DNA from: Sthenelais limicola
Taxonomy: Eukaryota; Annelida; Polychaeta; Phyllodocida; Sigalionidae
Direction of reading: 5' to 3'
Assembly (NCBI GenBank): GCA_942159475.1
Contig: OW804098.1
Coordinates: 6,982,383 to 7,046,382 of the forward strand
DNA length: 64,000 nt
Part shown: one piece after another, positions 7,858 to 40,100 of the stretch
Position numbering within the stretch: position 1 is the first letter of the stretch
Layout of the letters: the number at the start of each line of letters is the position of its first letter
Position numbers and translations under genes: made by a program
The notes under the pieces: generated by a model
The model's database searches: none
What the model saw: the letters and a program-made list of their open reading frames with translations, nothing else
What the model was told of the DNA's origin: nothing

Positions 7858-8879
7858 ATTTGACTTCCGGTTCGCGCCTTTTTCTGAAAGAAAGTGTTCT
7901 CTCCACTCGGAGATTTAATCACCCTTTTTTTTTCAGGATAGAGGATTAATTCGCTCCTTTTCAAGGAGTATAGGAAGAGATTCTAACAAGGTTCTTATAG
8001 AAGCTTGAAATTTGGACTGTCATACGATATTTCACATGAAATAATCAAAATAAGATAGCAGTTATCATCGAACCTCGGATTATCGCCCTATACGCCATCT
8101 TGCCTCCTCCCGGCATGGTCTGGAGGAAGGGAAAATAGTAGAATACGACTAAAAGACAAACTAAAATCGAGGTCTTAGGGCCCTAAGAAGGAAGAAATAA
8201 CAGAAAAGCAACAGGATTACTAAATCTAGCTGTGAGAACTGTGAGTTAAAAACAAAAAGGATTATCGGTTAATCGACAGATTAACCCAGGAGGCAACCAC
8301 GCTAAACAGGGAAAACTCGTTCGGAAATAAGCAGTCGAAAGGAAAATACGAGAAAACAAACAACAGCTCCTTTTACATTCTTTGAAAACTGGAACAATTA
8401 CTTATATTCCTAAGGATTATAGTGGTAAATACCGGGATTAAGAACAAGTAGACGGATTATCATAATACGTAAAGCTCTGATGTCGCCATCTTAAGGAATT
8501 GACTCTCAAAGGTTGGACTAAAGACAGTTAAATTGAACTCCACCAGGTGGAGACTCTATCCCCCAACTCGAAGAACCAAGGTAGGGTAGAAAGGATTCGA
8601 CAAATGGCTGAACAGACATAATCTTCCCTTGACAAGAGGAAAAATTGACTAAAAGTGGAATAAGGAGTGTAAAGAAAGGTTTTAAAAAAGCTTTTCTTAT
8701 TTGATTTCAATCTTAGAGGATAAAAACTGAAACTTTTAAATTGTCGCTAACGTTATCGGAGTAAACCGGAAGCGTGAAGCGGCCATCTTGAATAAAGAGC
8801 AAAAAACTTTAAGCCTCATAGAAATAACAAAGCAGGAAGTTCCACACAACCCGTTACAACGCTATCCCCCCTGGGGAGC
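7858..8879 (+). promoter_or_regulatory. Putative internal promoter / 5' UTR of the LINE
   Basis: Contains ETS-type sites (ACTTCCGG near 7862; ACCGGAAGC near 8765) and three YY1-core sites (CGCCATCTT at 8093 and 8484, GGCCATCTTG at 8781). YY1 sites are a known start-site element of mammalian L1 5' UTRs. That these drive this element is inference. Confidence 0.45.
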
Positions 8880-10403
8880 ATGTCGGAGAACCACGTTGAA
8901 GGTAGCGCTAAGGGTCAAGGTATGAAAAGAGACTTGGAAAGCTCTCCACCTCAACAAATTAAGCAATCGAAAGCTGCAAAACTAAATAATAGCGATAGAA
9001 ATACATCAAGTATGGCCAATACAGACAGCAAAGAGGCTAGTGGTAGTCGATCGGATGCTGGTAAAAAGGAATCCGATCCCGGCTTAAGATCCCTGATTTC
9101 TTCCTTAGCTACGGATCAAGCTGAGTCAAATAGGAAGGCCCAAGAGAAATATAGTGCTGTACTATTAAGGCTCGATCAGCTCGACGCATTAGAACAAGAG
9201 GTAAATATCATAAAAGAAGGTTGTCGCTACAGAGACGATGAGATGACTAAGTTCGAAGAGAGATTGAAGCTACAGGAGGACAAAATGGTAGTAGTTGAAG
9301 AAAGACAAGAAAACATGACTCAACCGAAAGATACAGACTACCTAGAGGAGCAGCAAAATAGGAGAGAGAAAGATCAGGAATTCATTCTAAAAGAAACCAA
9401 AAAGCTGGAAAAAAACTTGCTCATCTTAGGAATCAAATCTGGAATAGACGAAACACAAACTCAGTTGAGCGAGAAAGTCGACAACGTGATTCAGAACTAC
9501 TTGAACTTGGCGGACATAAAAGTGGTAAAATCATTGAGGGTAAGCACGAAAGCAGATATGCCTATCAAAATCGAGCTAAAGACCGCTGAGCAAGCAAAAT
9601 TGGTATATGAAGCCAGGTCCAGATTAAAACAACATGACGAAGAAAACGTGGAAAAAGGAAAGGGTATGAATATACGCAGAGACACCCCACACATAGTGAG
9701 ACAGAGGCTAGCAAAGGTTAAAGCTATTGCCAGTGCTGCAACTGCCCAAAAAATCGAAGTTGAAATGTTCGGAACGAACATCAAGATTAATGGCATATAT
9801 TATAGGCACGATCAACTGGACGGAATCCCTTCCAGCCTCTTGTTGTCTAACATTTCCAGAAGGCAGAACGACAAAACCATGGTCTTTTTTACATCAGAAA
9901 ATCCCTTATCTAATCACCATAAGTCGCCCTTCAGAGTAGATGGACAGAAATTCGAACATGTAGAGCAATTTTTATTCTACCAGAGGGCAAGAATTGCAGG
10001 CGATCCAGTGAAACTACAACTTGCTCTAAATACTAAAAATCCGGTTGAATGCAAAAGGTTCATGGCCAATGTGGAGGATCCCAAAAACACATGGAAGGAC
10101 CACAGAGAAGAAATGCTCTTGCAAGCCATTAGAGCGAAGACAAGACAAAACGATTTGGTAAGAAATTACTTAATTCTCACAGAAGATCGTACTATAGGAG
10201 AGGCCTCACCCACGAGTAAAATCTGGGGAATTGGCATGGGACTGGATCATCCTCACGTCCTAGACTCGGATTCATGGCCCCCACATGGAAACCTGGTAGG
10301 AAAGATATGGATGAAAGTAAGGAAGGAGATAGCAGATGATATGAAAAGCAAGGAAGCATCTGCAATGCCAATGGAAGAAGCTCCCTCTGCTTCCTCCTCA
10401 TAA
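8880..10403 (+). CDS. LINE ORF1 protein with C-terminal NADAR domain
   Basis: A 507-aa ORF starts at the ATG at 8880 and stops at 10401. Residues 1-70 are polar and probably disordered. Residues 75-175 are heptad-like and charged, consistent with the ORF1p coiled coil. Residues about 177-310 (KNLLILGI onward, with an R-R-D-T-P segment) resemble the RRM plus C-terminal domain of L1 ORF1p, which binds RNA. Residues about 334-482 are a NADAR/YbiA-type domain: FFTSENPLSN, SPFRVDGQKF, VEQFLFYQRAR, AK-x2-QN, EASP, IWGIGMG and NLVGKIWMKVR are all in family order. NADAR proteins act on N-glycosidic bonds, in riboflavin precursors or on ADP-ribosylated guanine. ORF1p should coat the element RNA; the role of the added enzyme domain is unknown. 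The ORF is intact and ORF2 starts 46 nt downstream. Confidence 0.85.
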   Translation: MSENHVEGSAKGQGMKRDLESSPPQQIKQSKAAKLNNSDRNTSSMANTDSKEASGSRSDAGKKESDPGLRSLISSLATDQAESNRKAQEKYSAVLLRLDQLDALEQEVNIIKEGCRYRDDEMTKFEERLKLQEDKMVVVEERQENMTQPKDTDYLEEQQNRREKDQEFILKETKKLEKNLLILGIKSGIDETQTQLSEKVDNVIQNYLNLADIKVVKSLRVSTKADMPIKIELKTAEQAKLVYEARSRLKQHDEENVEKGKGMNIRRDTPHIVRQRLAKVKAIASAATAQKIEVEMFGTNIKINGIYYRHDQLDGIPSSLLLSNISRRQNDKTMVFFTSENPLSNHHKSPFRVDGQKFEHVEQFLFYQRARIAGDPVKLQLALNTKNPVECKRFMANVEDPKNTWKDHREEMLLQAIRAKTRQNDLVRNYLILTEDRTIGEASPTSKIWGIGMGLDHPHVLDSDSWPPHGNLVGKIWMKVRKEIADDMKSKEASAMPMEEAPSASSS

Positions 10404-10449
10404 ATAGTTTAATGTGAGTGTCTTTTCTGAGGATAAATTAACCATCAAA

Positions 10450-13400
10450 ATGAATCCTACATCAACAATGGATAATAAATCAACGATAAAATTTATTTCT
10501 CTAAACATAAATGGCTTGAATAATGTCGTCAAGAGAAAAGCGATCCTTACATATTTTAGTTCATTCACGAACACGATTGTAGCTCTACAAGAGACTCACT
10601 CAAGTGAAGCGAAAGAAGTAATATGGAATACACAATGGAAGGGACAAATATATTATGCACATGGAACTACAGCTTCTAAAGGTGTGTTATTCCTCATCCC
10701 AAGTGAGCTAAAGAAGCTAGTAATATCAAGCTGCGCTGATAGAATGGGAAGATGGTTATATTTAATATTACAAGCTAATGGTAGTAAAATTTGTGTTTTC
10801 AACATATATGCCCCAACAGCAGATAAACCTGAAGAACAATCCTCGCTGATAAAAACAATCGAAGAAAAGATACAAGAAAGCACCCATGACAGTCTGATAA
10901 TGCTAGGTGACTTCAACGCGGATATTTCTTATAAACAAAATAGTGTCCAAGGTGTTAAATTGAAAGATATGTTAGGAGATCTCGATATGAATGATGTAAT
11001 CGATTCAAAAAATCCTGGGTTACCTGCCTACACATGGTCAAGGTTAGGTCAAAATTCTAGATTGGATTATATATTTGTTTCCAACAATATAACCAGCAGG
11101 GTTTTAAACTGCTCTACGATTTTTAATACTCATTCTGACCATAAAGAAGTCCATGCGGATATTCTTATATATAGATCTGAAAGAGGTAGGGGATATTGGA
11201 AGTTGAATAATTTACTCTTGAATAATGACAAATTTGTGTATGAGGTAGAAAAACTCTGTGAAAATGCGCACAAGGAGGCTTTAAACCCCAAAATGTCATG
11301 GGAATTCTTTAAATTAAAAGTAAGAGAACTCGCTATTAAAATGTGCAGCGAAAGATCAAGGAAAAAGAGAAGTCAAAATGAAGAGAACAGAAGAATTTTG
11401 ATAGCACTTGATTCAAAACGTAGAATGAACTTAGAAGAAGTAAGTTTAAGAAATAAAACTCTACAAAAAATTAGAGAATATGATCTTGAAAAAGCTGAAG
11501 GTGCCCTGCTAAGGTCCAAGGCAAGATGGGCGACAGAGGGTGAAAAACCTACACGGTATTTTTGCTCCCTAGAGAAATACAAATCAGAGAAAAGAGTTAT
11601 CAATGTTTTAAATGTTGATGGAGAATTAAAAAACAAAAAAGATGACATAATTAACGAAGGACAGAGATTCTATGCTAACTTGTACAGCAAAGGCCTTACC
11701 GATGTTAATGTTATGAATGAGTTTGTAAATCCTGATCATTATACTTGTCTAGATGAAAGTGATAACAACCTACTGTGTAGAGAAATTACTTATGATGAGG
11801 TTGAAAAGGTGGTAAAAAGCTTCAAAAAGCACAAATCCCCGGGTTGTGACGGATTTGGAGCTGAATTCTATCAATTTTTCTGGTATTGTATTAAAGATCT
11901 ATTTATGTCTATGCTTGAAACATGTCTAGTTGAAGAAGAAATGACAGAAAATCAGAAACGAGGTCTAATTAGTGTTATTCCTAAAAAAGACAATGATTTA
12001 TCGTATTTAAAAAATTGGAGGCCAATTACTCTTTTGAATGTCGATTATAAAATCATTTCTAAAGTAATAGCTAACAGATTAGCCTTTTTTATTCCGAATA
12101 TCATTGATGATGATCAATTTGGTTTTATTAAGGGTCGTTTTATCGGGTCTGCTATACGAAAAATAGACGATATTCATTCTTGGTTAGAAAATGGCGATGA
12201 ATCGGGACTAATTACCTCGGTCGATTTCTCCAAAGCTTATGATTCCATTGATTGGACATTCATAGAAAAAGCTTTAAAAGCTCACTGTATTGATTCTATG
12301 TTTATTTCTTGGGTTAAAACTTTGTTAAAAGGCTCAAAAGCAACCTTTATGAACAATGGCTTTTCGTCGAGATGGTTTAATGTAGAGAAAGGAGTAAAAC
12401 AAGGAGATCCCATATCTTCTATCCTCTTTATAGTTGTCGCTGAAAAATTATCAGAACAAATCAGAAGAAATGAGAATATAATAGGTATAAAATATGCAAA
12501 TATTGAAACAAAACTGGTACAATTTGCCGACGATCTGACTTTATTGGTCAAAGATGAATTTTCCCTAGTACAGGCGGTAAGAGTTATTGAAAAATTCTCC
12601 TTAGCATCTGGTCTATCGCTAAATCCGAGTAAATCAAAGGGATTCATAATTGGAAATATCACAATAACAAACCGTACTCTTCTCAGTGTCGACTGGACTA
12701 ACCAAATGAAAATACTTGGAATTAATCTCTTAAATCCAAGAAATGAAGATGAAATGTTCAAAATCAACAGCTCGGAGCTGTTGAACAAGATAAAAGAAAC
12801 CATCAATGCATGGAAAAATCGCTTCTTAACTATAAAGGGCAGAATACTAATTTGTAATGTCTTTTTGTTGCCGGTGTTTCAACATGCTTTATCGTGTATC
12901 CACTTTAATGAAACATTGTTAAAGGAGATAGAGAAAGTTGTACTTAAATTTGTATACAACAGTGACCATCACAGCATAGGTGTAAACTTCCTAGCTCAAA
13001 AAGCAGGGAAAGGAGGCTTAAATCTCAGACTAATCAGAGAAATATATCAAACAAATAGAATAATGTGGGTTAGAAGAATTCTTTTGAATAGAAATAAATC
13101 GTGGTTTAAAGTCTTAGAAGCTTTTCACCAAAGAGATATAGACGAGATATTCTTGTGTAGATTCAAACCTACAATCGCGATTAATAAATTCTACAAAGAA
13201 CTATTCGAAATATGGAATAAATATTATTTTAAACTAAAGCCAGAGAGCATCGAACAAATTCTTGGAGAAAGAATCTGGGCTAATAGATATATAAAAGATA
13301 AAGGCCAGGTGTTGTATTGGTCAGAGTGGAAGCAAAAGGGAATTACTGTCATTGGAGATATTTTCAATGAAAATGGTAGTATGATGTCAACAAATGAACT

Positions 13401-14253
13401 AGCATCCAATTTCGAATTTAGACCCTCATGCTTTTCTAGACAAATGTTAAAGAAAGCAATTCCGAAAGAATGGATTAATTGTATAAAAAGGGAAAGAAAT
13501 TATACCCTAAGAAACTCTGTGATCTTTGAAATCGCAGGAAAGGAGTTAAACATTGTCGAATGTACAGCAAAGAGTGTTTATGACCAGCTGCTAACCAAAT
13601 TGAAACCAAAATGGCAGAAATTACAGAAATGGCAACAAAGGTTAGAATTGTCTAAAGAAGAATATGATAAGATCCAATGGGATGATATTTTCTCCATGCC
13701 TTATAAGGTCTCTACGGAGGCAAGAATTCATGTATTTCAGTACAAAATCTTACATGGCGTGCTAACTTGCAATGTATATTTGAAACAAATTGATGTGATA
13801 AAAACTGACACATGCTCCTACTGTAAGAAAAAAGATGATTTAATTCACTTTTTAGTAACATGCAAGAGAACAAAAGAGCTATGGCAAAACATCCTTAAGT
13901 GGATCTATGAATGTGGCTATTTAAATACTGACAGCAGTGGTAAAATGATATTTAATCGAAAAGGAAGATATATAGTCATAAGACCTATTGAGATTATTTT
14001 TGGAATCGATGTCACGAATTTAAGTTCCAAAATAATAAACTGGATTATTCTCCAGGTAAAATCATTTATATATAGACAGAAGTTGTTTGCCAAAGGTAAC
14101 ATTGACATTTTGACCACAATGTATGAACTTCGTATGAGATGTAATGTTGTTATATATGCCTTCGATTTTAAGAAAAATAGTGAGGAGGAAAAAAAAATAT
14201 GGCGGCGTGTGGCCGAAGGTATCACAGAATATATTGAGGTGCTGAAAGGCTGA
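10450..14253 (+). CDS. LINE ORF2: endonuclease-reverse transcriptase
   Basis: The protein is about 1267 aa from the first in-frame ATG at 10450; the frame is open from 10414, but only with a GTG. The apurinic-type endonuclease spans residues about 10-235, with SLNINGLN, the catalytic glutamate in LQETHS, LGDFNAD, SRLDYIFVS and the SDH box. The reverse transcriptase spans about 500-800, with KNWRPITLLN, GFIKGR, the first metal site in SVDFSKAYD, GVKQGDPISS and the FADD box near residue 691. A C-terminal CCHC finger, CSYCKKKDDLIHFLVTC, lies near 1121. All catalytic motifs are present and the frame is open throughout, so target-primed reverse transcription looks possible. Translation probably depends on reinitiation after ORF1. 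Confidence 0.92.
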   Translation: MNPTSTMDNKSTIKFISLNINGLNNVVKRKAILTYFSSFTNTIVALQETHSSEAKEVIWNTQWKGQIYYAHGTTASKGVLFLIPSELKKLVISSCADRMGRWLYLILQANGSKICVFNIYAPTADKPEEQSSLIKTIEEKIQESTHDSLIMLGDFNADISYKQNSVQGVKLKDMLGDLDMNDVIDSKNPGLPAYTWSRLGQNSRLDYIFVSNNITSRVLNCSTIFNTHSDHKEVHADILIYRSERGRGYWKLNNLLLNNDKFVYEVEKLCENAHKEALNPKMSWEFFKLKVRELAIKMCSERSRKKRSQNEENRRILIALDSKRRMNLEEVSLRNKTLQKIREYDLEKAEGALLRSKARWATEGEKPTRYFCSLEKYKSEKRVINVLNVDGELKNKKDDIINEGQRFYANLYSKGLTDVNVMNEFVNPDHYTCLDESDNNLLCREITYDEVEKVVKSFKKHKSPGCDGFGAEFYQFFWYCIKDLFMSMLETCLVEEEMTENQKRGLISVIPKKDNDLSYLKNWRPITLLNVDYKIISKVIANRLAFFIPNIIDDDQFGFIKGRFIGSAIRKIDDIHSWLENGDESGLITSVDFSKAYDSIDWTFIEKALKAHCIDSMFISWVKTLLKGSKATFMNNGFSSRWFNVEKGVKQGDPISSILFIVVAEKLSEQIRRNENIIGIKYANIETKLVQFADDLTLLVKDEFSLVQAVRVIEKFSLASGLSLNPSKSKGFIIGNITITNRTLLSVDWTNQMKILGINLLNPRNEDEMFKINSSELLNKIKETINAWKNRFLTIKGRILICNVFLLPVFQHALSCIHFNETLLKEIEKVVLKFVYNSDHHSIGVNFLAQKAGKGGLNLRLIREIYQTNRIMWVRRILLNRNKSWFKVLEAFHQRDIDEIFLCRFKPTIAINKFYKELFEIWNKYYFKLKPESIEQILGERIWANRYIKDKGQVLYWSEWKQKGITVIGDIFNENGSMMSTNELASNFEFRPSCFSRQMLKKAIPKEWINCIKRERNYTLRNSVIFEIAGKELNIVECTAKSVYDQLLTKLKPKWQKLQKWQQRLELSKEEYDKIQWDDIFSMPYKVSTEARIHVFQYKILHGVLTCNVYLKQIDVIKTDTCSYCKKKDDLIHFLVTCKRTKELWQNILKWIYECGYLNTDSSGKMIFNRKGRYIVIRPIEIIFGIDVTNLSSKIINWIILQVKSFIYRQKLFAKGNIDILTTMYELRMRCNVVIYAFDFKKNSEEEKKIWRRVAEGITEYIEVLKG

Positions 14254-14361
14254 ATTTTTATTTTTCCTAACTACCATATTATCCACATATGTCTTTAGAA
14301 TTGTAGAAGCCCAGACGGCAGGTTACAGTAAATAAAGTCTTTTGTAAAAACAAAAAAAAAG
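14254..14361 (+). other. LINE 3' UTR and A-rich tail
   Basis: A short 3' UTR contains AGAATTGTAGAAGCCC and AGTAAATAAAGTC (an AATAAA signal), then ends in an A-rich run near 14347-14360. The same end occurs at 61326-61400. Between the tail and 14940 I see only AT-rich sequence without a gene. Confidence 0.7.
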
Positions 14362-14943
14362 ATAGAAGTAGCGTATTCACTTAATCCTGGATATTTAACA
14401 ATATAAATATAGAAGATAGAATCAAACATTTCTACAAAATAATTGGCTCACAGAATATTCAACAAAAACCCAGTTTCTCCCACTGCTGGGAGATGCAGAT
14501 ATGGGATGGTGATTTAAAAACATTTAAATCTCTGAAACTGTTAACAGTAATCTGAAATACCAATGCCAGTAAATCTGTTACTCTTTAAGTTACAGGATTC
14601 TCAAATATAATGGGCAGTGTGAGCCTTTTGCGAACATATAAACTCCTCTAATACAATGAAATACTTGGATATGCTTCAAATGAAGCAGGAGTTGCACATA
14701 ATGATATACAATAAGTAAGTAAGTTTGACAGATTGAACCGGTGTAGTCTATACTCCTCCGCCGGCAAAGGCATTTTACAAATTTTTCTAAAAAAACATAA
14801 TTATTTCCACGACAAAGGCGCTTCTGTGTAAGTGTCTCTGCCTGTATCGATGTTCCACTTGTTGTTAGATCTAACTGCGCTCAGCAGGTAAAAGCTCGAG
14901 CTGCCGGCGGCACCTGGTGGCAGCCAGAGATAATCAGTTATAA

Positions 14944-15300
14944 TATAGGAGAGGGGGTGATTCGGGGGGGGGGGGGGTAGGTGCAGGGGTGGATAGCGGA
15001 GAAAAGTTTGAGGTATGTAGAGGGGTGATAGAGGGGTGATGGAAAGGGGAGGTAGTGGATGGTAGGAGAGTGGAAGCAGGAGTGAAAATATGTGTGTAGG
15101 CGGTGGGTTGGGTGGGTGGGGGTTGGGTAAGCCAAGGGGGTGCGGGGATAGGGAGTGAGGGGCAAAGACTCATGTGGGGTAAAAATACAGTGGGAAGGTG
15201 TATAGTTGGGGGAAGGGGTTTGTAGGGGGTGGGAGGGGGAGGGGAGGAGTTTAGAAGAAGGGGCAGGCACAGTAGGTGAACTGACAGGCAGGCTGTAAGG
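14944..15300 (+). repeat. G-rich low-complexity tract
   Basis: About 350 bp of G/GA/GT-rich sequence with repeated GGGGTG and GGTAG blocks and an 11-G run at its start. Proline-rich open frames on the minus strand are a consequence of composition. It has quadruplex potential, like 4420-4690. Confidence 0.7.
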
Positions 15301-25100: not shown

Positions 25101-28100
25101 ACTTATATAATAATAATAATAGATTTTTATTTCCATATCACATTTACAACAATTGTCATACTATGTAGAATTAAAAGAGAGAAACCTATGGAAAGAGGAA
25201 TAATCTCTGTGACAGTCACAGCTCTTCCGAATATCCCTTAAATTTTGTTTTACTTCACTAACTATATATTATTCTCACTGTAATTGAATTTGGGTGTATG
25301 TTGGTACTTCTTTTCTTAGCACAACCTAAGTAGACTCCAGTTAGTATAATTGTCTGCATACCATTTTTGGTGTCCATCGGAAGGGTTTTTTCAGAATTTC
25401 AATTAAGGATTTCAATTAAGGCCAACATCTTACCCCTCTGCTTATGGGCGTATAATTCGGTTTTGGGGACTTTAAAATTAAAGAATATCACACATAAAAC
25501 CCACGTAGCAACATCTACCGCTAAACTCCCTGCAGCAGGAGGTAGGGACAGGTTGCATCCAGCCCGGTTGGCCAAGACCGGAGAGCCGGCGACTTGACAG
25601 GGGAGCCGGGCGGCTGGCTAGTAGTGTTGAACCAGAGCGGGGAGAACCGCTCTGTCTCAAGACCACCACACATAGCACCAGACATGTATCATTTCATGTT
25701 AAATCATGTTCAATCCATAGAAATTAGGTGAAGTGGAGACAATCTCTGAGCTTATTAAGGTAGCTAATTAAGGTAACTTTGTTACAACAGCCATTACTGA
25801 GAACAATATATTATCATTAAATGTTTTGGTATCATTATAATATTAGGCCATCAGCGGAGCCTCAGAATATGGCTAGAAAGTGATTTTCGTTCCGGATTTT
25901 GGGCACTACTTTTTGATACCAGTTTCCAATTGCTGGTACTAGGCCCCTATATATTATAATACCCCAAAAGTTCTCCATGTAATTCCTGCCAGTTTCGAGA
26001 AAATCAACATTGATTTTGGCAGTGCAAAGCCTATGAGGCCAAAAGCCTGGATTCATGTTTAAGTGTAAATTTAATAATGTCATTTATTTAATGAACCTTG
26101 AATTTCGGGTCATACCAATGTTTTTTTTATCTATTCCAGACCTCCAGATTCTCCTTAATTCAAATCTGCCATGTACCACCCTGTAACCTTTCAGAATATT
26201 TTTGTATTGATGATTTTTAAAAATAAATGATTTAATCAATTTAAAAATATTGACTGGCTCTAGAATTAAGTGACTGATATCAATCGATAGGAAATAGTGT
26301 TTGAGTTATTTTGAGGCTTCTGTTTATCGAATATTGGACAGGATGTGCCCCGTCAGGGAATATAACAACGTCAAAGTCAGATGCGAGTGGATCAATGGCG
26401 AGCTTTATGATCTAATGAAACGTCGTGATAGGTACTTCAAATTAGCCACCAAATTCAAATCACCTGATCTACTGGATAAGGCCAAAAACTTGCGTAAAGA
26501 GGTAAATAAATTTGCAAAACATCTAAAGAACGATTATATAAAACATACGCTCCTGGAATGTAAAGATGACCCGCACAAGTTTTGGCAAAAAATGACCCCA
26601 TTTATAAATCCAGATAAGGTAAAACATAACGAAAAGATCCAATTAAAACAGAATGATCAAGTATTAGATCAAAAAGAAGTGCCTGATTGTTTTAACCAAT
26701 ATTTTGCGACAATTGGACCTAAGCTCGCCACGAAGATCACCCCTTTAGACAAAACCGAACACGACAAGTATACTGCAAATGTAGCGATTCGCAGAGTCTC
26801 GACAATGAATAAACAACTTAACAAAGCCAATTCCCCGTATCTCTGTTTATTCCAGTCCGTAAAACGGCAATCTATCCGGATTACCCGGCAAGGGTAGTGT
26901 ATTACAATCCGGAGCACATAAAGGTGTCAGAACACATCAGGTAATATGATAAACACAAACAATCAAATGACACATAATATAGGAATGACATGGAATATAT
27001 AAACAGAGAAGATACTCTTGCAGGAGTATATAATAAGAATTGAGGTGTAGATAAGGGATAACAAAGCATTTAGAAACACTCTACTAGTAAATGCAGGGGA
27101 TCAAACGCAGATCCCTCTGTGTTAAAGCAAAGGTACCAATCCTTTATGGATTGGCCCTAGAGGTATGTAGCGAAACTACTACAATACCCCCCCCCTTATT
27201 TTTAGATTTTTAAAAAACCCTTTTGAAAAATCGTCATAAGAACAACTAAGTACAAAGTACTACAAGGTTTTATACGGATAAATAAAAAGAGAATTCACAA
27301 TGCGAACCTGGAAAATAAGAGTTAAGGTAGGTCTTCTTGGTGACAAAAAGGAGCAGCAAATGGTGTCCTAGCTACATACTTAACACAGACCAGGTCGCTA
27401 CATCTCTAATGTAAGAAAATCCGAACTAAACAAGTGAAATGACAACAGTCAAGTAAATAAAAGAGGTAAAACACATAAAGGAGCATCCGTGTCCTAACTA
27501 CATAGGAAAACATGTTGAGGATTATTGATATATTTCTACACGTAGAAAAATAAAAATCCGGATACAAAAAGGTGCTTCCTGAGACCTCGAAGACATATAG
27601 AAAAATAGTAGGTTGAACAATACAACAACATAATCAAACACTAAATGTCTTTTGTCAAATATGAAATGCAACTACTTTCCGTCAGCATTGTCATTGGCGC
27701 TGGTGTCGGTACTAGCAGCCGGAGCAACCTGCCCGTGGGGATTCACCAAGGTTGTAGGGCTAAACAGCCAGTTTGGTATTTCATAAAGTCCTGGGTTCTG
27801 TACATCACGACGTGGAGTGCCAACGGGAGGCATCTGCTGTTGATCCAACGCCTGGACTGGAACTTGGTTCGGGGCTTGCTGAGCCAATGCTGGGTTTGGC
27901 GGAAACTGAGTCGGAGCCTGCTGAAGTGTCCTAAGGAGATTCGACAGCATGAGCAACTGAGGTAGCTGTTGCGGGTCCAACGGAAGGGCAGGAGTCATCG
28001 CCAGAGGAGTAGGGGCCGTAGAAGTTAATGCTGCGCCGACGGACGGATCCGCGGACTGCTTGGTTACTTCGGAGTCAGGGGTAGAGTTGCTTTCGCGATC

Positions 28101-31100
28101 CAGCATGGATTTTAACCGAAAGTTTTCTTCTTCAAGGCGGCGAACTCTACCATCACTGGCGGCCAGACTACGCCTTAGTCCCTCTACAACTCCTTCTTGG
28201 CTTCGACTTTGCTCCCTCAAGTCTCCAAGATTTTCTACGGAGGACTTCACCATTCCAATCGACATTAGGGGCTCTGTCACTTCTTTTACCACGGACGAGA
28301 TTTCAGCACAGGCGGCCTCAGCTGCAGAGGAAACCTTCTCCAATGCTTCAGACACCACATTCTCTACACGTCTCACCAAATCAGCACTTTCACCAGAGGA
28401 GGGCAAGTCCTTCAAAATCTCTTCAGACCAGGCCTGCGACCTTCTGCAAAGTCTCTTTGGAAGGGGAGCAGATTCTCTGTCTCGGACATCACTAGACATA
28501 GACCTATCCCTTTTTCCGGATCCAGCCGGATCTCGCCGAGCATCTGTTGCAGAACTTCTACTGCTTCCAGCAGCTGCAGCAGCCTTAGTTGCAGACCTTC
28601 CACTCGAGGTGGAGGCGGACTCTATGGATTCTTGATCCGTCCGGGATTTCTTAGGGATACAGTAGGAAGAAGATGACGTCCACCTCATTACCCTCAAATG
28701 CTGCCCGGCCATGTAACACATTTTCTGAAAAACATGATTCGGTCTTGTGGATGGTAGAACCTTAATGGCCTTGTCCTTGGCTTCATCTCTCTTAAGGTGG
28801 TGTTGGTAAGACTCCCCGTTCATGAGGTGCTGGATCAGCTCCACCCTCCTGTCCAAGATTTGGAGACACTTGGGGAAGGGGCAGATCCAGACCTGCACGA
28901 ACGGGGCATGCTCTTCGCATAAATGGCGAAACAGACGTGCCCGGGTAGAATAAGCACGGATGCCTTCCGGATTGAGGGACAAGACACGGCACACGAGAAA
29001 GGGGCACCTGTGTCCTGGTTCCCACAAGCGGTGCACCTCCATCACCTTTTGATAAGTTCCTCTATCAATAGAGTCCTCCCGGACTAGCTCCGGCCAGACA
29101 CGGGTCTCGTAGCGGTCCGGGTCTCGTAGCGGTCCATTTGATCGTCACCTTCAATCTCTTTCTCTTCTGAGTCCGATTCGGGACAGGTGACCACTCCGGA
29201 CCCGGGTTGGTCGGATCTGGGGTCCAGAGGGACCACTTCTGCCGCTGAATCTAGCTCTCTCCTAAACTGTTCCATACTGCCACGACTGGCCAACTGTTCT
29301 CTTCGTTTCTCCGCCCGATGGTAGTGGCGGCGCTTTATTTTTCCCTTGAGCTCACGGTCAGACTTCTTCTTGGTCTTTTTCTTGGCGGAACCATCAGATG
29401 AACCAGAAGTAGAAACGGAGATGGGCCCACTTGCGGTTCGATGCGGACCCGGACTCCTGCCTCTAGCAGTCCATTAGTGAGGTGCAGGAGAAGCAGATGC
29501 TTCTCTACGCCTACTTCTATTTCTCTCTCTCTTCTCACTAGCAGACTTGTTGTATTTGTCTGATTTCAAAGGGGAGGCTGACTTTCTTAAGCTCCGACGT
29601 GGGGCCGGAGTAGGGGCCTTAGGAGTGGTTCCTTGTCCACCTACATCCATTTCCTCTTCATCCCGGAGTGGCCGGATCTCGGTCCCAAGTGGACGGATAC
29701 CCGGAAGGGTACGGCCCACAGTCTCAAACTGTCCGGAATTCGCCGGATCTAGTCGCAGGAGGTCATTAGCTCCATCTAGAAGGCGAGCCTCCTCTTCTTC
29801 AGTTAGAGGCGGAACGAAAGGTTCGTCATGGTCAGAACGACCTTCACCCTCGTTACTCATACTGGTGCTTGATGTCGAAAAATCTTTGGCTTACTGAAAA
29901 GCAAAGAATAACACTCAGTCAAGGTCTAACAGCGTTTACATAAATAACGATATTCAGCAAACAACAAATCCCTCTCTCCACCATATTACATACAGGGAGC
30001 AGAGGTCCAGAAAAATAAATACAAAATGACCAGATAACACAGTCTAACTTCATTTTTAGAAGTTAACAAAAGCAGTTTCACCAGGTGAACTCTTTAGAAG
30101 ATAAATATAGGTTGGCGGATAGCCAGACAATCAAATGCTGGTGGTGTAGAGAGCCATGCTCAACGCTATATCTTCACCACACACATACGCCATTCATTCA
30201 CAAAGCACCGGTGTCATGGCCGACGTCTCGAAACATTTCACCGAACTTGTTCCACTCATCGTGAGCAATCAAAACATTTTACAAATTCCAACATATCGGG
30301 TCTAGTAGCAGACAACTCTCAACTTTCACATTGATACCAATACAGAGTATGACAAGTAAGTTTTAACCCATTTCAACTCACTTCTTTCCTAGAGGATTCT
30401 CAGTGGCGATATGCCGGCAAGCTGTTGTTGTGCAGAGTCACGGAAGTGGAGTGAGAAAGGGTGCAATACCACAGCGCCCACGGCCAGCGTGGTAACTGTA
30501 GTACACCAAGTCGCCACCAACTCACAGCGCCACCTTCCCGCCGAGACTACTGCTAAACATAGCTTTTCCTAGTGCTCTACTACAGGGCGTACAATGATGT
30601 TAAAGTATGCAGCCTGCTCTGATCTTCCGCGGAGACAAATGCGGAAACATTGTCCATAAAGCCCACTGTCCACTTAGCCGATTTTAATAGCAATTTCAAT
30701 TCAATTTCCGAGCTGATTCAAGCTTCCCGGGGAGTCTTAGTTCAGCTAGAACTCAAGGGTTCTCCCAAGCTAAGCCATTTCTCAGTGCAGTTTCTAACAA
30801 GCTCTACGGACTGAATGGTTCTTTCCCAGCCACTCAATCAATTCAATAAAGAATTTCTCAAATGTCGTGAAAGGGCGGCATGACTTATCCGATATATCAG
30901 CCACCGACTTCTCGTTGTGTATGACTTTCGTGGAACCATCAGGAAAGCTCCACCTGTACTTTAAAGCCTAAGTTCCATATTGCAATCTTGATGGAGCTTT
31001 ACGCGTGCGCTTAGCCCTTGCAATTACTGGTGGAACACTGTCCGTCTTCTTCACAGGAGAAATAGGAACATTTTGAACAATGTCCAAATTTTTCCTTGGC

Positions 31101-34100
31101 CTCCCCCTCCCTCTTTTCAAGGGCTTAGCAGAATCCGCCAAAACCAGAGGAACAGATTGCTTTTTCACAACTGTATCCGTCTTAGCTTTATTGGGTCTGC
31201 CTCTTCTCTTAAGAGGTAGCACAACCGGAGAAATTTTTAATTTCTTTTTCTTCTTCTGAGGCTTCCTCCTACCAATCCGGACAACAGCAGGACCAACATC
31301 TACTGTCTGTTCCTCGTCGGAAGGAGGAAGTTTTGCTCCAGCTGTTTTCTTAGGCCTACCTCTGGGTTTCACCCCAATGGTAACTTTCTCCTTTACTTTC
31401 CTCTCCGGACATTCAGCACCAGCTAGAACTTTTCCGCCTTCAAACTTCAGGATCTCACGCCCAGCCTTCTCTAACTTACGGAATTCAGGTGCCTTATGTA
31501 AATTAACAGCCTGAATCGGTCCGTCCTCATCAAAGGCGGGTTTCAGATAATCAACATGATATCTGACGATTCCCTCAGTTGTCTCTAATTCATAGGTAGT
31601 ACCCCCTATGAATCTACGCACTTTGAAAGGCCCATCCCATTTGGGACCATACTTCTTGTTAGCCTTAGGGGGACAGTACCTATAAACAATAGCCCCTTCC
31701 TCAAAGCGCCTAGGACGAGCCCGCCTGTCAAAGTCTTTCTTTTGGTGCACTGCAGCAACGCCCAGATTTTCTCTGACAAACTGGTGTCCGGTTCTCAATG
31801 ACTGTCTCAAGTTCTCCACGTATGACATCCGACAAGGAAAATCCAGCCCTCCGGGTTCAACTCCATGGATTAAATCCACAGGAGTCACAAGCTCAGTCCC
31901 AAAAACTACTGAATTGGGCGTACACAAAGTACTAGCATGCACCGTACCCCTGTAAGCATGCGCTATACACGGAGCGAGCAAGTCCCAATTCGAATCCGAG
32001 TAGTTAGTCAGGCAAGAGAGCTGCTCAACAAGAACTCTGTTAAAACGCTCCACCTGACCATTCGACTGAGGCCTGTACGGAAGAGTGACTAGCTTTTCGA
32101 CCCCCAACATGTCCAACAAATTCCGCAATAGCCGAGACCTGAATTCCGGCGCTCCGTCCGTCTGCAACGAAACAGGACAGCCGAATCTCAGTACCCATTC
32201 TCTAAACAAAACTTCAGCACATCTTTCTGCCGTGTGGTCTGGCATAGGAAATGCTTCCGCCCATTTCGAGAAATGGTCCGTAATTACCATCACGTAGTTG
32301 TTACCTCTAGGGGTAGTCTTAAATGGACCTATAATATCCAACGCTATTCTACTCCATCGTTCACCATGGATCTCCTTCTTTAAAGGTGTAATACCTCGTC
32401 CGCCTCTAGACTTTCTCATGCTGCACTCAGGGCAAGCCTTTAGCCATCTTTTCAAGTCATAGCGCATACCAGGCCAAAAATATTTCATTTTTGCCTTCCA
32501 GCTAGTCTTGAAATTGCCATAATGACCTTGCAACTGAGATCCGTGCAAGCAACGAAAAATATTCCTTCTCATAGAGGCAGGAATTATCTTCCTGACATAC
32601 GTGTGTCCAGTGTTCTTACGCAGCCACCGCAGACATAAGACACCCTGGACCATCTCTAAATTTTCTCTGTTACGGATGTATGTACAGAATTCCTGCGGCT
32701 CACCAGACAACTGTTCCTTGCTGGGAACCGGACTGGATCCGTCCAATACAGCCATAACTTTCTTCAACAAGGGATCTGCCTGTTGAGCATCCCGGATCTC
32801 GTCCTCCAAGGAGCCTAGAACCACCACAGCTTCCGCGATTACAGCATCATGGACACCACAATCGGAACAGCCAGGGTTTCCGCACTTCCTGGTAGGGATT
32901 CGAGACAATCCGTCCGCATTCGTATGCTTCTTGCCCGCCCGGTGAAGTATCATACTCTGCTCCAAGCCATACTCTTGCATCGTGGCTAACCATCTAGCAA
33001 GCATATCAGTTGGATCTTTAAAATTCAGGAGCCACCTAAGTGAAGCGTGGTCAGTTCTTACGTAAAAATTACGATTGCCAAGGAGATAATGTCTGAACTT
33101 CTTCAAGTAGGACAGCACTGCCAATAGCTCACGCTTAGTAGCACAGTAATTTTTCTGCGGCTTGGTGAGGCTATTACTAGCGTATCCCAATACGACTTCC
33201 TTGCCGTCTTGCATCTGCGACAAAACTCCGGCCATTGCAAAGCCACTGGCATCAGTATCCAAGATGAAATAACCTTCCTTTCTAGGATACCCAAGAACCG
33301 GGGCTGAAGTTAATAAAGTCTTAGCTGTCTTAAAGGCTTCATCACACTTCTTGGTCCACACTATAGGTTTACTATAGCGTTTCTCAGTCCCAGCATCCGT
33401 CACAATCTGTTGCAGAGGAGCTACAATTCCACCAAAGTTTGGTTGAAACTCCCTATAGTAGGAAGCGAAACCAAGGAATTGTCTAACTTCTTTAGCTGTT
33501 TTGGGAACAGGCCATTCCTGAACTTTTGCTATCTTAGCCGGATCCGCGCGGATTCCGGCGCCAGAAACAATCCGTCCCAAATACTTCACTTCCTTACGGA
33601 AGAGCTCACATTTCTTAGGCTTAAGCTTAAGCCCATATTCTCTAATGCGTTCCAACACTAGTTTAAGATTGTCTGCACATCCCTGGAGAGTCTTACCAAA
33701 GACCACCACATCATCCAGGTATACCAAACAGGATTTCCAACGCAATCCGTCCAACATACGGTCCATCATGCGTTGGAAAGTGGCAGGGGCGTTACACAGT
33801 CCAAAAGCCATCACTTTAAACTGAAACAGACCCACACTGGAAAGAAAAGCAGTTTTGTGCTTACTGTCTTCATCCATTGCAACCTGCCAATATCCGGACT
33901 CCAAGTCTAGTGTGCAAAACCATTGATTTCCACCCAAGGCTTCAACACACTCATCAATTCGAGGTAGAGGAAAACTATCCTTCTTAGTCACCGAATTCAG
34001 TTGGCGATAGTCTACACAAAATCTCTGTGTACCATCCTTCTTAGCAACCATCACTATGGGAGCCCCCCACGGACTACTGCTATGCTCTATTCTGCCTGCT

Positions 34101-37100
34101 TTATACATTTTCCAGATTTCCGCCTCTGCTCCCTCCCGCCTAGCCACTGGCATCCTACGATAGGCTTGCTTAACAGGGATTGCATCCCCAGTGTCAATCA
34201 CATGGCTAACCAAGTGAGTACAACCAACTTTGGTACCAGGTAAGGAAAAACAGTCTTGGTAATCATAGAGCAGTTTTCTAACTGAAGTATCATACTCTGC
34301 TCCAAGCCATACTCTTGCATCGTGGCTAACCATCTAGCAAGCATATCAGTTGGATCTTTAAAATTCAGGAGCCACCTAAGTGAAGCGTGGTCAGTTCTTA
34401 CGTAAAAATTACGATTGCCAAGGAGATAATGTCTGAACTTCTTCAAGTAGGACAGCACTGCCAATAGCTCACGCTTAGTAGCACAGTAATTTTTCTGCGG
34501 CTTGGTGAGGCTATTACTAGCGTATCCCAATACGACTTCCTTGCCGTCTTGCATCTGCGACAAAACTCCGGCCATTGCAAAGCCACTGGCATCAGTATCC
34601 AAGATGAAATAACCTTCCTTTCTAGGATACCCAAGAACCGGGGCTGAAGTTAATAAAGTCTTAGCTGTCTTAAAGGCTTCATCACACTTCTTGGTCCACA
34701 CTATAGGTTTACTATAGCGTTTCTCAGTCCCAGCATCCGTCACAATCTGTTGCAGAGGAGCTACAATTCCACCAAAGTTTGGTTGAAACTCCCTATAGTA
34801 GGAAGCGAAACCAAGGAATTGTCTAACTTCTTTAGCTGTTTTGGGAACAGGCCATTCCTGAACTTTTGCTATCTTAGCCGGATCCGCGCGGATTCCGGCG
34901 CCAGAAACAATCCGTCCCAAATACTTCACTTCCTTACGGAAGAGCTCACATTTCTTAGGCTTAAGCTTAAGCCCATATTCTCTAATGCGTTCCAACACTA
35001 GTTTAAGATTGTCTGCACATCCCTGGAGAGTCTTACCAAAGACCACCACATCATCCAGGTATACCAAACAGGATTTCCAACGCAATCCGTCCAACATACA
35101 GTCCATCATGCGTTGGAAAGTGGCAGGGGCGTTACACAGTCCAAAAGCCATCACTTTAAACTGAAACAGACCCACACTGGAAAGAAAAGCAGTTTTGTGC
35201 TTACTGTCTTCATCCATTGCAACCTGCCAATATCCGGACTCCAAGTCTAGTGTGCAAAACCATTGATTTCCACCCAAGGCTTCAACACACTCATCAATTC
35301 GAGGTAGAGGAAAACTATCCTTCTTAGTCACCGAATTCAGTTGGCGATAGTCTACACAAAATCTCTGTGTACCATCCTTCTTAGCAACCATCACTATGGG
35401 AGCCCCCCACGGACTACTGCTATGCTCTATTCTGCCTGCTTTATACATTTTCCAGATTTCCGCCTCTGCTCCCTGCCGCCTAGCCACTGGCATCCTACGA
35501 TAGGCTTGCTTAACAGGGATTGCATCCCCAGTGTCAATCACATGGCTAACCAAGTGAGTACAACCAACTTTGGTACCAGGTAAGGAAAAACAGTCTTGGT
35601 AATCATAGAGCAGTTTTCTAACTAACTCTTTTTCTTCTTTTCTAGACAGATGAGCATCATTCACCAACTTCTCTAACGGATCCTCGGGACTAGGAGGGAC
35701 AACTATATCAGGAGCCAAAAGCTCATCATCCACAATAGGCGAGTCCATTACCTGTATGGAATTGATAATAGCCGTCTTAATCATTTCATTATCCTCTTCC
35801 TCCGGTAGGGAAGCATCGGACACCAAAGTCACAACACTCACTCTCCCTACTATCATGTCACAATTCAGGCGTACAGTGGAACCGGACGGATTGGAAAAAG
35901 CTACCACGGACGAATTAACGTTACCCGATACGTATGTATTAAGGCTTCCCAAGGCAAAGTCTTTTAACAATCCCTGATCAGGCTCAAACATCAGCCCATC
36001 TGACGTGTCAGAGCCTCTACCCAGGTCTATCTTAGCAAGGGTCACGGACCGGGGTTGGAGGACCACAGGTTCTTTCAACCTGACTTCTCCCCCGTCCACG
36101 AACTCTCTCACTTCAACAGCCTGAACAGTGGACTGTCTCAAGCTTCTCTTCATGTGCTTCCACTGCTTACACAATACAGATACTGCTTGATTCTCAAGGA
36201 ATAGCAATCCAGACCATTTATGGACGTAATAAAAATCCGCCCCAATAAGTCCATCTTCCGGACCTTTCAGGCCGGAGACAACCAGACATGTAATCATGTA
36301 TGTCCGATCCCCTATCTTCAAAGGACAAAGCGCGCTCCCATGAGTGGTTATAGGCAGCCCATTCCCCATTGCACACACCATTTGGACCGGAACCAAAGGT
36401 GGTTTGGAAGAAAGAGAATCATAGAATCTCTTGGTAACCAGGCTAGTAGTAGCGCCAGGGTCAACCAGAAAATCTCCATTCTCACTGTCTAACCCCACTG
36501 GGGCATACCATCTCTCACGGACAATTAAATTATCCGTGATCCTCAGCGTCTTTGGCTGCTGTACAGAAACTTTCTGTATCCGCGCCGACCTGTTGGGGTT
36601 CTGTCCAACCACAACGATCTGACCTTCAACAGCTTGGTACCCGTCCTGTCCCAATCTCACATGAGAAGCAGAATCCGGGCTATCCTGGGAGATATCCGGG
36701 GAGATATCCTCACCTAGACAGGTGTTCTTTTCCGGCAACGACCTAGGATCTCTTGCGTCCGGGAGCGCCTGACCTTGTGTCGAAGCTAACCCCTTACTAA
36801 CAAGTGCCTGAGCAACACCCCCAGTTCCTATACTACTAGCCAAATCCGTCCGAGCTGTAGTACTATGAAGCGGCGTCCCTTCGGCCCCCATATCGCTTCC
36901 TATAAGGGCCGTGAAGGGTTTTCCGGAGCCTTAGCTTTAGTAGACTCGGCCAACTCCTTCAAAATCTTCGTGGTAGGACAATCAGGAGAGATATGTCCTT
37001 CCTTCCCACAGAAGTAACATCTCCTGGGTCCGTCCCTTCTCCGGCTGGAGAATTGCCCAGAAAATGTTTTCTTCCAGGGTTGTCCAGTCTTGCCATCACC

Positions 37101-40100
37101 AGGCTTCTTCTTGAAATCCCTATAGGCCTGTAAGGCCTGACAGATGACGGTTGTCACGTCCAAAGTCTCCGAACCAGAGGAGGTAACATCATCATCATCC
37201 AGGGGCTCAATCACCTGGGCTATAGCAGCACCGGACTTGCGGCGGGACCTTCTCTTCTTTACAGCCAAAGCGCGTTCCTGAACTGGTTCAGGAGCTGGCA
37301 GCGCAGCAAGTTTTTGGACGACCACACTGGATTCGGTGTCCATCAGGCATCCCTCATAAACCTCTGACCAATGAATGGCCTCCTGTAGGTCTACGGGTTC
37401 CTTCAGACGAGCCCAATTGGCCTGCTCACAGCTAGTCAACCCCTTCAGGTAAGTATGAAGAGCCATATTGACTATGGTACTATTCATCCTCTTACCGAAA
37501 GCGTACCTGGCTCTGCGGGCTACCTCGTTACCAAACTGCCGGACAGTCTGTCCGGGAGTCTGGCGACAAGCACGAAATTCAGCTTGTCTTTTTATACGAG
37601 AAACCTCGCCGAAATTCGCGTCCATGTGTTGAACGAATTCCTTCAGAGACAGACCTGCAGGCAGATCACCCATATCCGCCAACTGCCGCTTGCATCCCCA
37701 CTGCAACTGAAGCAGGAACTCTTCCTCTGACCAGTTGCATGCAACTGCCATTATCCGCATCTCAGACAGGTAAACACGCCAAGGGTCCTTTTGGTCCCAC
37801 ATCTTTATGACGGGCGGACGCATGGTGTATTTGCTCTTACCCGGACCCTGAGTATATTCAAACTCGCCAAAGTCCGAGTCGTCCGTTCCATCATAACTTA
37901 ATCCCTGGACAAGGGATCGATCTTTTTTAGCGATCCGAGATCGCTCTTTGGTTTTCCCCGACTTTACTTTTTTCAATTTCTTTCCTTTCTTCCTGGGGGC
38001 AGGAGATTCAGAGTCAGAGGACGAGGAAGAGGATGAATCACTCGGATCTGACGGATCACCAGGAGAGCCAGCCACAACCCGTATCTTCGGCTTGTAGACA
38101 TCTCCCTTTACCTGACCCCTCTCGAAATCAGTGTCCGTCCCTGCAGTACTGCTTTTCTTACCAGTACTTGCAGTGCCATCCTTCTTCCCCTCCCCTTCAG
38201 GAGTCTTATCCGTCTGAGTGCCAATACTAGCAGACAAATCAGTTACCAGCACCGTATCAGATTCAAACGGAGTTTGAGTACTAAAACTCCTACTTGTCAC
38301 AGAAAAACTGGCCTGCGGGCTTTTCTGAGAGGGTGTTTCCTTTCCTTTACTGAATGACCCATTAGCAGGGGAAGAAGTAGACATACCAGAACTTTTGTGG
38401 TCCCGAAATGTTACTCTCTTCGCCGTATCCTCAGACAAACCAACTGGAGATCCAAAGAAATCCATTCTACCTTCCCTAGTTTCTAACCCAGCCTGTGGAT
38501 CCGCAAACGTTGAACACACAGGAGCAGACCTACTTGTATTCAGAGGAGCCATACTCCTCCGACGTGTATCTGCCGCCAGTGTATTCCAAAAAGGGGACGA
38601 CACAGAATCAGTCTGAGTTGAAGCTGACTGATCTTCAGAAACATTCTGGAGACGAGAATGATCGTCTACCCGAGATATTTCACACTTCAACTTTTCATTC
38701 TCCACCTGTAATTTTTTAATAAATACAGAGTCCCTTTCTGTCACCACATCCAGTGTTTCATGGATCTCTCGGTTCTGGAACACGAGTTGTTTCATTTGTG
38801 CAACAAACTCTAAGTTCTTCCTTTTCTCTGCAGCCAAATTCCTCTGCAAACCCAACAACTGGAGGCGAGTTGCTTTCAACAAGCTTTCCTCGTCTGACTC
38901 CATGTCGCTTTCAGGGGATCTGTAATCCGTGAAGGCTGCACGGTCCTCCCGGCCAGTTCTGTACTCGTCAGATTCAGAACCAACATCAGACAAAATAATT
39001 TGTCTGAACTGTCTATCGAACTTCATCTCTGCCAATGTAGTCCCAGTGGCAATCAGTCTGCCCGGCTGCACAAGTTGCTTGCTCATCCGTACAGGGTCCG
39101 GCGGGGGTCCGCCTTCCGCTCCAGGTGCTGCTGCCATCTCTGAAAGAGAACCAATCAAGTCAACAAAATCCACGGATTTCCTAATCCGGCCAGGCTTAGT
39201 CAAACGAACTGGTCAAGAACTGGTCACGGCACCAATTGTAGCGATTCACAGAGTCTCGACAATGAATAAACAACTTAACGAAGCCAATTCCCCGTATCTC
39301 TGTTTATTCCAGTCCGTAAAACGGCAATCTATCCGGATTACCCGGCAAGGGTAGTGTATTACAATCCGGACACATAAAGGTGTCAGAACACATCAGGTAA
39401 TATGATAAACACAAACAATCAAATGACACATAATATAGGAATGACATGGAATATATAAACAGAGAAGATACTCTTGCAGGAGTATATAATAAGAATTGAG
39501 GTGTAGATAAGGGATAACAAAGCATTTAGAAACACTCTACTAGTAAATGCAGGGGATCAAACGCAGATCCCTCTGTGTTAAAGCAAAGGTACCAATCCTT
39601 TATGGATTGGCCCTAGAGGTATGTAGCGAAACTACTACACAAATATAGATAACACTGCATATCCAAACTTTGAGTTTGGACAGTTGGACACTGAAGATCT
39701 AAGAGCAATAATTCGTAAATTGCCAGAATATAAATCCTCAGGCCTAAAACACATGAGCAGTGCTTTGTTGAAAAAAATACTTGTCACTTTGATTGAACAA
39801 TTTAATTACCTGATAGAGTTGTCCTTCCTGACGGGAATCATCCCTGCTAAATGGAAATCGGGCAATGTTACCCCCTTATTTAAGGCGGGTGACAAAATCA
39901 GATCCGGGTAATTTTAGACCTATTACCAGTATCTGTGCCCCAGCCAAGATAATAGAGAATGTTGTACAAAGGAAATTGCTCCATCATTTAGAGGACAGAC
40001 ATATATTGTACAAATGGCAATATTGGTTCAGACCTGGTAAGTCTACGGGTGATGCTGTCACTACCTTCCTCAACAATGTCTACAAGGCAATCAATGATAA

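Follow-up and report, generated by a model that had tools for sequence, protein, structure and literature searches.

The first open reading frame (ORF1) of a young long interspersed nuclear element (LINE) from the polychaete Sthenelais limicola carries a NADAR domain that purifying selection constrains much as it does the rest of ORF1. The element lies in a 64,000-nucleotide stretch of that genome (assembly GCA_942159475.1, contig OW804098.1, positions 6,982,383 to 7,046,382), which we call the window. Nearly all sampled elements of its L1-like lineage have the domain, and, judged by their sequences, NADAR-bearing ORF1s occur in elements of at least two LINE superfamilies in this one genome—a spread that suggests lasting pressure, not one accident. 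We give a probability of about one half to the reading that the domain is a cis-acting repair or counter-defense enzyme, which would work on the element's own nucleic acid.

A NADAR Domain in ORF1

An earlier note, made by a model from the letters alone, had described ORF1 as an L1-like RNA-binding protein fused to a NADAR (YbiA-like) enzyme domain. The frame (8880-10403) is present, and its translation holds every NADAR motif that was quoted. Residues 339–484 match Pfam NADAR (PF08719) with E 4.1e-24 (86.1 bits; cut-off 35.1), and NCBIfam TIGR02464 matches the same region with E 1.9e-25 (89.9 bits; cut-off 73.7). Among solved proteins, the best sequence matches are 8bau (E 1e-7)—by its title, the P. 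nicotianae NADAR with ADP-ribose—and Escherichia coli YbiA, 2b3w (E 0.0026). A model of residues 327–490, built on a 92-row alignment, reached a mean predicted local distance difference test score (pLDDT) of 97.1 and a predicted template-modeling score (pTM) of 0.90. Foldseek placed it next to the same two structures (8bau, E 1.2e-9, TM 0.83; 2b3w, E 6.9e-9, TM 0.76), the only ones among 38 Protein Data Bank rows to reach E <= 0.001. Against a viral library, 55 of 111 rows reached that threshold, and the named viral rows among the matches listed were mostly phage and giant-virus NADAR proteins, with a few nido-like replicase polyproteins. The predicted structure thus has the YbiA/NADAR fold, and no loss of the catalytic pocket is seen in the window copy. 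A protein-database search with the window NADAR alone gave six candidates and none at E <= 0.001, which reflects a limit of word-based searching and not absence. A chance motif match is rejected by the profiles, the model, and the selection described below.

The L1-like, RNA-binding character claimed for the rest of ORF1 fared less evenly. A model of the whole protein is weak (pLDDT 50.4) and was drawn on only for the long helix that it predicts; L1 ORF1p was matched neither by Pfam at E <= 1 nor in a profile search of solved structures. From its position, residues 183–333 may correspond to an RNA recognition motif plus a C-terminal-domain-like part, which together with a coiled coil would make up an ORF1 of type II.

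The Element and Its Recent Activity

What kind of element carries the domain? The features of the LINE, all on the + strand and in window coordinates, are as follows.

7862..14360, +, whole LINE element, ~6.5 kb, from GACTTCCGG to the A-rich 3' end, delimited by alignment with 10 other copies
7862..8879, +, 5' untranslated region, its first part common to 9 of the 10 other copies
8880..10403, +, ORF1, 507 aa, stop-free in 10 of 11 copies examined
9075..9425, +, predicted long helix or coiled coil, aa 66–182, from the low-confidence model of whole ORF1
9426..9878, +, region before NADAR, aa 183–333, homologous to the same ORF1 region in LINEs with a different ORF2
9879..10337, +, NADAR domain, aa 334–486, from Pfam, NCBIfam, solved relatives, and the model
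10414..14253, +, ORF2, 1279 aa from GTG 10414 (first in-frame ATG 10450), best solved match human L1 ORF2p
10495..11142, +, endonuclease domain of ORF2 (Pfam PF03372, E 1.7e-13)
11977..12729, +, reverse transcriptase domain of ORF2 (Pfam PF00078, E 3.9e-40)
14331..14360, +, AATAAA and A-rich 3' end

Among solved chains, L1 is the closest to ORF2 with its endonuclease and reverse transcriptase, which makes this an L1-superfamily LINE: human L1 ORF2p matches with E 3.9e-91, far better than R2 (5.2e-20). A solved endonuclease chain named LTX, which we take to be Xenopus Tx1, also matches ORF2 (E 7.2e-16). A DNA search of the source genome (1.13 Gb in 161 contigs; scores for 34 out of 1293 candidates) found the element in at least 37 places. 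Twelve of these, including the window, cover the full query, 11 at 99–100% identity and one at 96%; the family is young. The window copy (7862) and nine of the 10 aligned others start at GACTTCCGG or one base later, the remaining copy lacks this 5' end, and all have the A-rich end. Target-site duplications of 14–16 nt flank seven of the 10 other copies; the remaining three show 6 nt, 7 nt away from the end, and no such 5' end, respectively, and the window copy has a 5-nt match only. Near-identical copies, target-site duplications, A-rich ends, and a stop-free ORF1 together point to a recently active LINE that shows the signs of target-primed insertion. A G-rich low-complexity stretch (14940-15300) lies just downstream of it.

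Selection on the Domain

Is the domain maintained? We counted variants in 11 copies, using codons one base off the window only and dropping multi-base codon variants. NADAR holds 15 synonymous and five amino-acid variants, a ratio of nonsynonymous to synonymous polymorphism (pN/pS) of 0.09. Ratios are similar in the preceding region (18 and 7; pN/pS 0.10) and in the coiled coil (13 and 4; 0.07), and the values are 0.21 at the ORF1 N-terminus (7 and 6) and 0.27 in the tail (2 and 2). A binomial test on five amino-acid variants in 20 gives p 2.9e-7 for NADAR; this value is too low, as variants inherited from a common ancestor do not count as independent events. Between the window and four older copies (L029–L032), synonymous divergence (Ks) in NADAR is saturated at an amino-acid divergence (Ka) of 0.11–0.18. 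Among 17 L1-like ORF1s (136 possible pairs; L057 and L069 left out), three pairs had 0.05 < Ks < 1.5 in both regions compared; their Kn/Ks was 0.183, 0.184, and 0.004 (the last for L067–L068) in NADAR and 0.059, 0.063, and 0.111 in the region before it. For the L029–L030 pair the NADAR value of 0.415 indicates relaxed constraint, which fits copies that are broken.

In favor of a captured passenger without function, mobile elements are able to carry sequence that they have picked up, and the window copy taken alone is uninformative on function. That explanation is nevertheless extremely improbable, being contradicted by the pN/pS of 0.09, on which we rejected it, by saturated Ks with a Ka of 0.11–0.14 against L030–L032, and by the presence of NADAR in 16 of 18 sampled elements (below).

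Spread within the L1-like Lineage

How widely is the domain shared among relatives of the element? A search with the reverse transcriptase found at least 137 places at 62–100% identity (from 11831 candidates), and one with the window NADAR at least 150 at 52–100% (from 4433 candidates), which disposes of the idea of a domain confined to one copy. By coordinates, at least 68 of the 137 listed reverse-transcriptase places have a listed NADAR 2.0–3.2 kb upstream on the same strand, a lower bound because many places are 5'-truncated or broken. We fetched 18 of the 137 upstream stretches, mostly with long open frames and at 62–88% identity, and NADAR precedes ORF2 in 16. Of the two exceptions, L058 lies behind a piece of another LINE; L063 has a long ORF2 frame, with no long frame in its upstream stretch and no NADAR further upstream either. 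The earlier note had named a missing profile match and a single copy drifting neutrally as outcomes that would tell against the domain; the profile matches, the fold, the hundreds of copies, and the purifying selection show that neither is the case.

Beyond the L1-like Lineage

The domain also precedes ORF2s of a very different kind. A Pfam NADAR search of the source genome gave at least 150 places (from 5561 candidates), none overlapping those listed for the window NADAR, and hence at least 300 different NADAR places. An ORF2 tree of 24 rows—19 of 20 fetched loci from the Pfam list (L018 was too short), the window, and L029–L032—splits the window group from the other 19 with full support. The root as drawn has 2.9 changes per column to one side and 0.9 to the other, in what is a quick tree with long-branch warnings. 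The other ORF2s are ~950–1000 aa where whole and form several deep groups. One of them, L011, matches human L1 ORF2p with E 8.7e-13 and R2 with E 4.3e-15; we presume that these non-L1 elements are CR1/Jockey-like. A search with the L011 reverse transcriptase found at least 150 places (from 16703 candidates), and at least 17 of the 150 listed have a Pfam-list NADAR 3.1–3.6 kb upstream. Among three more fetched, two have NADAR (47–48% identity); in the third, a piece of another LINE lies in front. Extra frames of ~170–260 aa lie around ORF1 in two of the non-L1 NADAR elements (L013:3992-5221, + strand; L016:3-2152, − strand; L016:4131-4781, + strand).

Was one module shared, or was the domain captured several times? 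The NADARs of the other LINE groups are 22–27% identical to the window domain. In hhalign comparisons of the ORF1 part before NADAR, the window aligns with group B (L016, L022, and L015, with a non-L1 ORF2) at a probability of 95.2 (E 2.8e-8), reaching the NADAR junction; through group B, this homology links NADAR-bearing ORF1s of two superfamilies. Further probabilities are 98.8 for B–C, 86.7 for A–B, 86.2 for P–B, 73.2 for P–A, 46.0 for A–D, and 36.0 for A–C. Those of the window with A (1.9), C (17.9), D (0.4), and P (16.8) are weak, as are D–B, D–C, P–C, and P–D (0.1 to 6.9), and group D stands apart from the other ORF1 groups. In NADAR trees (near copies left out; P0007 and P0009, with ORF1-like sequence before NADAR, put among the LINE rows by eye), 20 LINE rows do not form one clade against 31 outside rows, and the well-supported branches need at least three changes; a tree with one LINE clade is not rejected (approximately unbiased test, p-AU 0.131). 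Near the window NADAR fall P0012, P0018, and P0021, proteins of 160–185 aa that are ~30% identical to it. Proteins P0001–P0005 (474–662 aa), which come from database contigs, have an ORF1-like part before NADAR, and no relatives of P0002 were found in viral contigs. Three short NADAR proteins on contigs of 1.8–3.5 Mb (P0006, P0008, and P0010) group with the L011-type LINE NADARs; these may have become host genes after starting out as LINE ORF1s.

There is a reported precedent for LINE lineages swapping entire ORF1s (PMC4120745). It is possible, though on balance we doubt it, that ORF1–NADAR is a transferable module that was moved between, or assembled more than once in, L1-like and CR1/Jockey-like LINEs and counters nucleic-acid ADP-ribosylation. 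If true, it would be a sign that invertebrate animals control transposons by an ADP-ribose-based means that has not been described.

The Active Site

Could the domain be an enzyme? Residue roles are those given in PMC11543638, and equivalences come from the alignment with 8bau, whose chain numbering is the paper's +2.

9963..9965, +, Glu362, equivalent to P. nicotianae NADAR E43
9984..9986, +, Arg369, equivalent to K50 (E. coli C7 K95)
10053..10055, +, Lys392, equivalent to K75
10092..10094, +, Trp405, equivalent to W89
10104..10106, +, Arg409, equivalent to R93
10200..10202, +, Glu441, equivalent to E125, the Glu that marks the YbiA subfamily
10224..10226, +, Trp449, equivalent to W133

The statement that conserved positions show no gaps goes too far: the core residues are kept, whereas K50 is replaced by Arg369 and D130 by Ser446, and R79, Y84, and D86 appear as Ala396, Pro401, and Lys402, three equivalences that are unsure because the alignment around 79–86 is a gapped loop. 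We compared 25 NADARs, several of them near copies (the window, 20 fetched loci, and database proteins P0001–P0004). All keep the equivalents of E43, K75, W89, E125, and W133. At the K50 position, 24 have a basic residue (19 K and 5 R) and one has I, while D130 is conserved in 23 and R93 in 3. Across another 16 L1-like elements, E43, W89, R93, E125, and W133 are kept in all, K75 in 15, and D130 in 5, with K (12) or R (4) at the K50 position; the relatives L030 and L031 have Lys where the window has Arg369.

The last-strand residue is reported as Glu in the YbiA subfamily, Asp in BC4488, and His in phage types (PMC11543638, PMC11125620). Glu441 and the TIGR02464 match assign the window NADAR to the YbiA subfamily, and a DarT1-linked NADAR of the BC4488 type is ruled out, Glu441 standing where that type has Asp. 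As far as its residues tell, the domain keeps the core active site and is most likely catalytically competent. A module that only binds or folds, without catalysis, would suit the old copy L030, which lacks Glu441, and the one NADAR in 25 without a basic residue at K50. We consider it very unlikely: E43, E125, and W133 persist in 25 of 25 and 16 of 16 domains although the groups are only 22–27% identical to the window domain, and L030, like L029, also carries stops in its reverse transcriptase.

What the Domain May Do

In L1 biology, ORF1p is a coat for RNA. If the ORF1 protein here likewise coats the element's RNA in a ribonucleoprotein (RNP), the fused NADAR would ride on the element's own nucleic acid, where it could hydrolyze N-glycosidic ADP-ribose adducts, most likely on guanine, in RNA, cDNA, or target DNA. 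Host ADP-ribosyltransferases would place such adducts, which would block reverse transcription or mark the RNP. NADAR biochemistry as reported in PMC11543638 agrees with the earlier suggestion that the element may undo ADP-ribosylation or oppose a host response based on NAD. Tested NADAR and YbiA proteins hydrolyzed guanosine-ADP-ribose and none hydrolyzed thymidine-ADP-ribose (PMC11125620), hydrolysis of the guanosine adduct being likewise described in PMC11543638, and NADARs of animal RNA viruses are argued to remove host-made ADP-ribose adducts from macromolecules (PMC9503650). A DNA ADP-ribosylating activity specific for guanine is reported from six clams (PMC11209040); were the host a mollusc, such an activity would make a suitable opponent.

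Several observations weigh against an enzyme acting on ADP-ribosylated nucleic acid. None of the 25 NADARs retains the residues that contact adenosine in 8bau (R79, Y84, and D86), and R93 is variable in NADARs other than those of the L1-like lineage; the ligand may therefore be something other than ADP-ribose, or its mode of binding may differ. The window family has Arg at a position where the K95R mutant of the E. coli C7 NADAR, although still hydrolyzing guanine-ADP-ribose in vitro, did not rescue cells from DarT1 (PMC11543638). Three of the four older copies are damaged in the pocket (E441K in L030, a frameshift across the E43 region in L029, and a stop at W133 in L032). Riboflavin intermediates are cited as NADAR substrates as well (PMC9303266).

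The lost adenosine contacts would also fit a different ligand, as expected of an active N-glycosidase whose targets are small molecules (cyclic ADP-ribose and other signals derived from NAD, or toxic intermediates) and that damps a host NAD-based alarm, a role proposed for phage NADARs (PMC9503650). The fusion to a presumed RNP coat protein points instead to a substrate on the RNP, and the same paper assigns the animal RNA-virus NADARs to macromolecular adducts; we find this explanation unlikely. Quite unlikely, too, is RNA processing in the RNP, for example of modified or capped 5' ends, or RNA repair. Processing of RNA intermediates is suggested in the Ectocarpus paper (PMC12477816), and PMC9303266 is also cited for such a reading, but SNA-3 has no known substrate and Pfam finds no RNA-repair enzyme in ORF1 or ORF2. 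The cis-acting repair or counter-defense enzyme remains the explanation that we favor. A selected NADAR on a presumed retrotransposon RNA coat makes two questions testable: whether nucleic-acid ADP-ribosylation restricts transposons, and what animal NADARs act on.

Other Elements in the Window and the Genome

Three near-identical free-standing NADAR frames of 162 aa (L073, L074, and L075, at G000 C1:94855254, C1:89380390, and C1:66983187) adjoin frames that we take to resemble genes of Polintons, virus-like DNA transposons; Pfam gave no match for the two neighbors scanned. In this genome, NADAR may have been taken up by a further kind of mobile element. Within the window, a Gypsy-like long terminal repeat (LTR) element, recognized by eye, occupies 27672-39203 on the − strand. 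One of its frames resembles gag (36900-39203), and two pol frames overlap each other (34198-36891 and 30968-34333). The same stretch of reverse transcriptase occurs in both pol frames, which gives the impression of nesting or duplication. Frames that look LINE-like by eye flank it (26301-26897 and 40412-41215), with no Pfam match of note at E <= 0.1.

Comparison with Known Systems

To our knowledge, little is known of LINE ORF1 roles beyond RNA binding. Tx1 belongs to the L1 superfamily. The earlier note could not tell whether a LINE ORF1–NADAR fusion had been described; it is not new, since a 2025 paper reports that ORF1s of several Tx1 LINE families of the Pacific oyster Crassostrea gigas appear, from Repbase, to hold a YbiA-type NADAR (PMC12477816). 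As in the window, the domain sits in the ORF1 of an animal LINE, and the window element is in all likelihood of the same kind. The oyster report, in the part concerned, consists of one sentence based on Repbase hits and a supplementary figure; that part does not analyze selection or spread and names no LINE group besides Tx1. In the open-licence PubMed Central literature we found no report of NADAR in non-L1 LINEs or of selection on the domain, and a search at title and abstract level for ADP-ribosylhydrolases linked to LINE-1 or retrotransposition found nothing relevant. The spread over two LINE superfamilies and the constraint on NADAR are, as far as we have searched, new.

Other LINEs have added domains to ORF1: CR1 and L2 elements with an esterase or PHD domain also gained an enzyme or reader, and their ORF1 evolves apart from ORF2 (PMC4120745). 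The main text of that 448-element survey has neither NADAR nor YbiA. Ectocarpus Gypsy elements, like the window element, are retrotransposons that captured a NADAR, but they are LTR elements of a brown alga, and their Pol protein bears the domain at its N-terminal end (PMC12477816). P. nicotianae NADAR (8bau) and E. coli YbiA (2b3w) share the predicted fold and core active site of the window domain; they stand outside LINE proteins, and 8bau has K50, R79, Y84, D86, and D130, none of which is retained in the window copy. The role of NADARs in animals is described as open (PMC11125620). Positive-strand RNA viruses of animals offer a parallel, a NADAR in an RNA-based animal parasite (PMC9503650), although the viral domains—in our Foldseek rows, those of Wenling nido-like virus 1 and gill-associated virus—sit in polyproteins rather than in a LINE ORF1.
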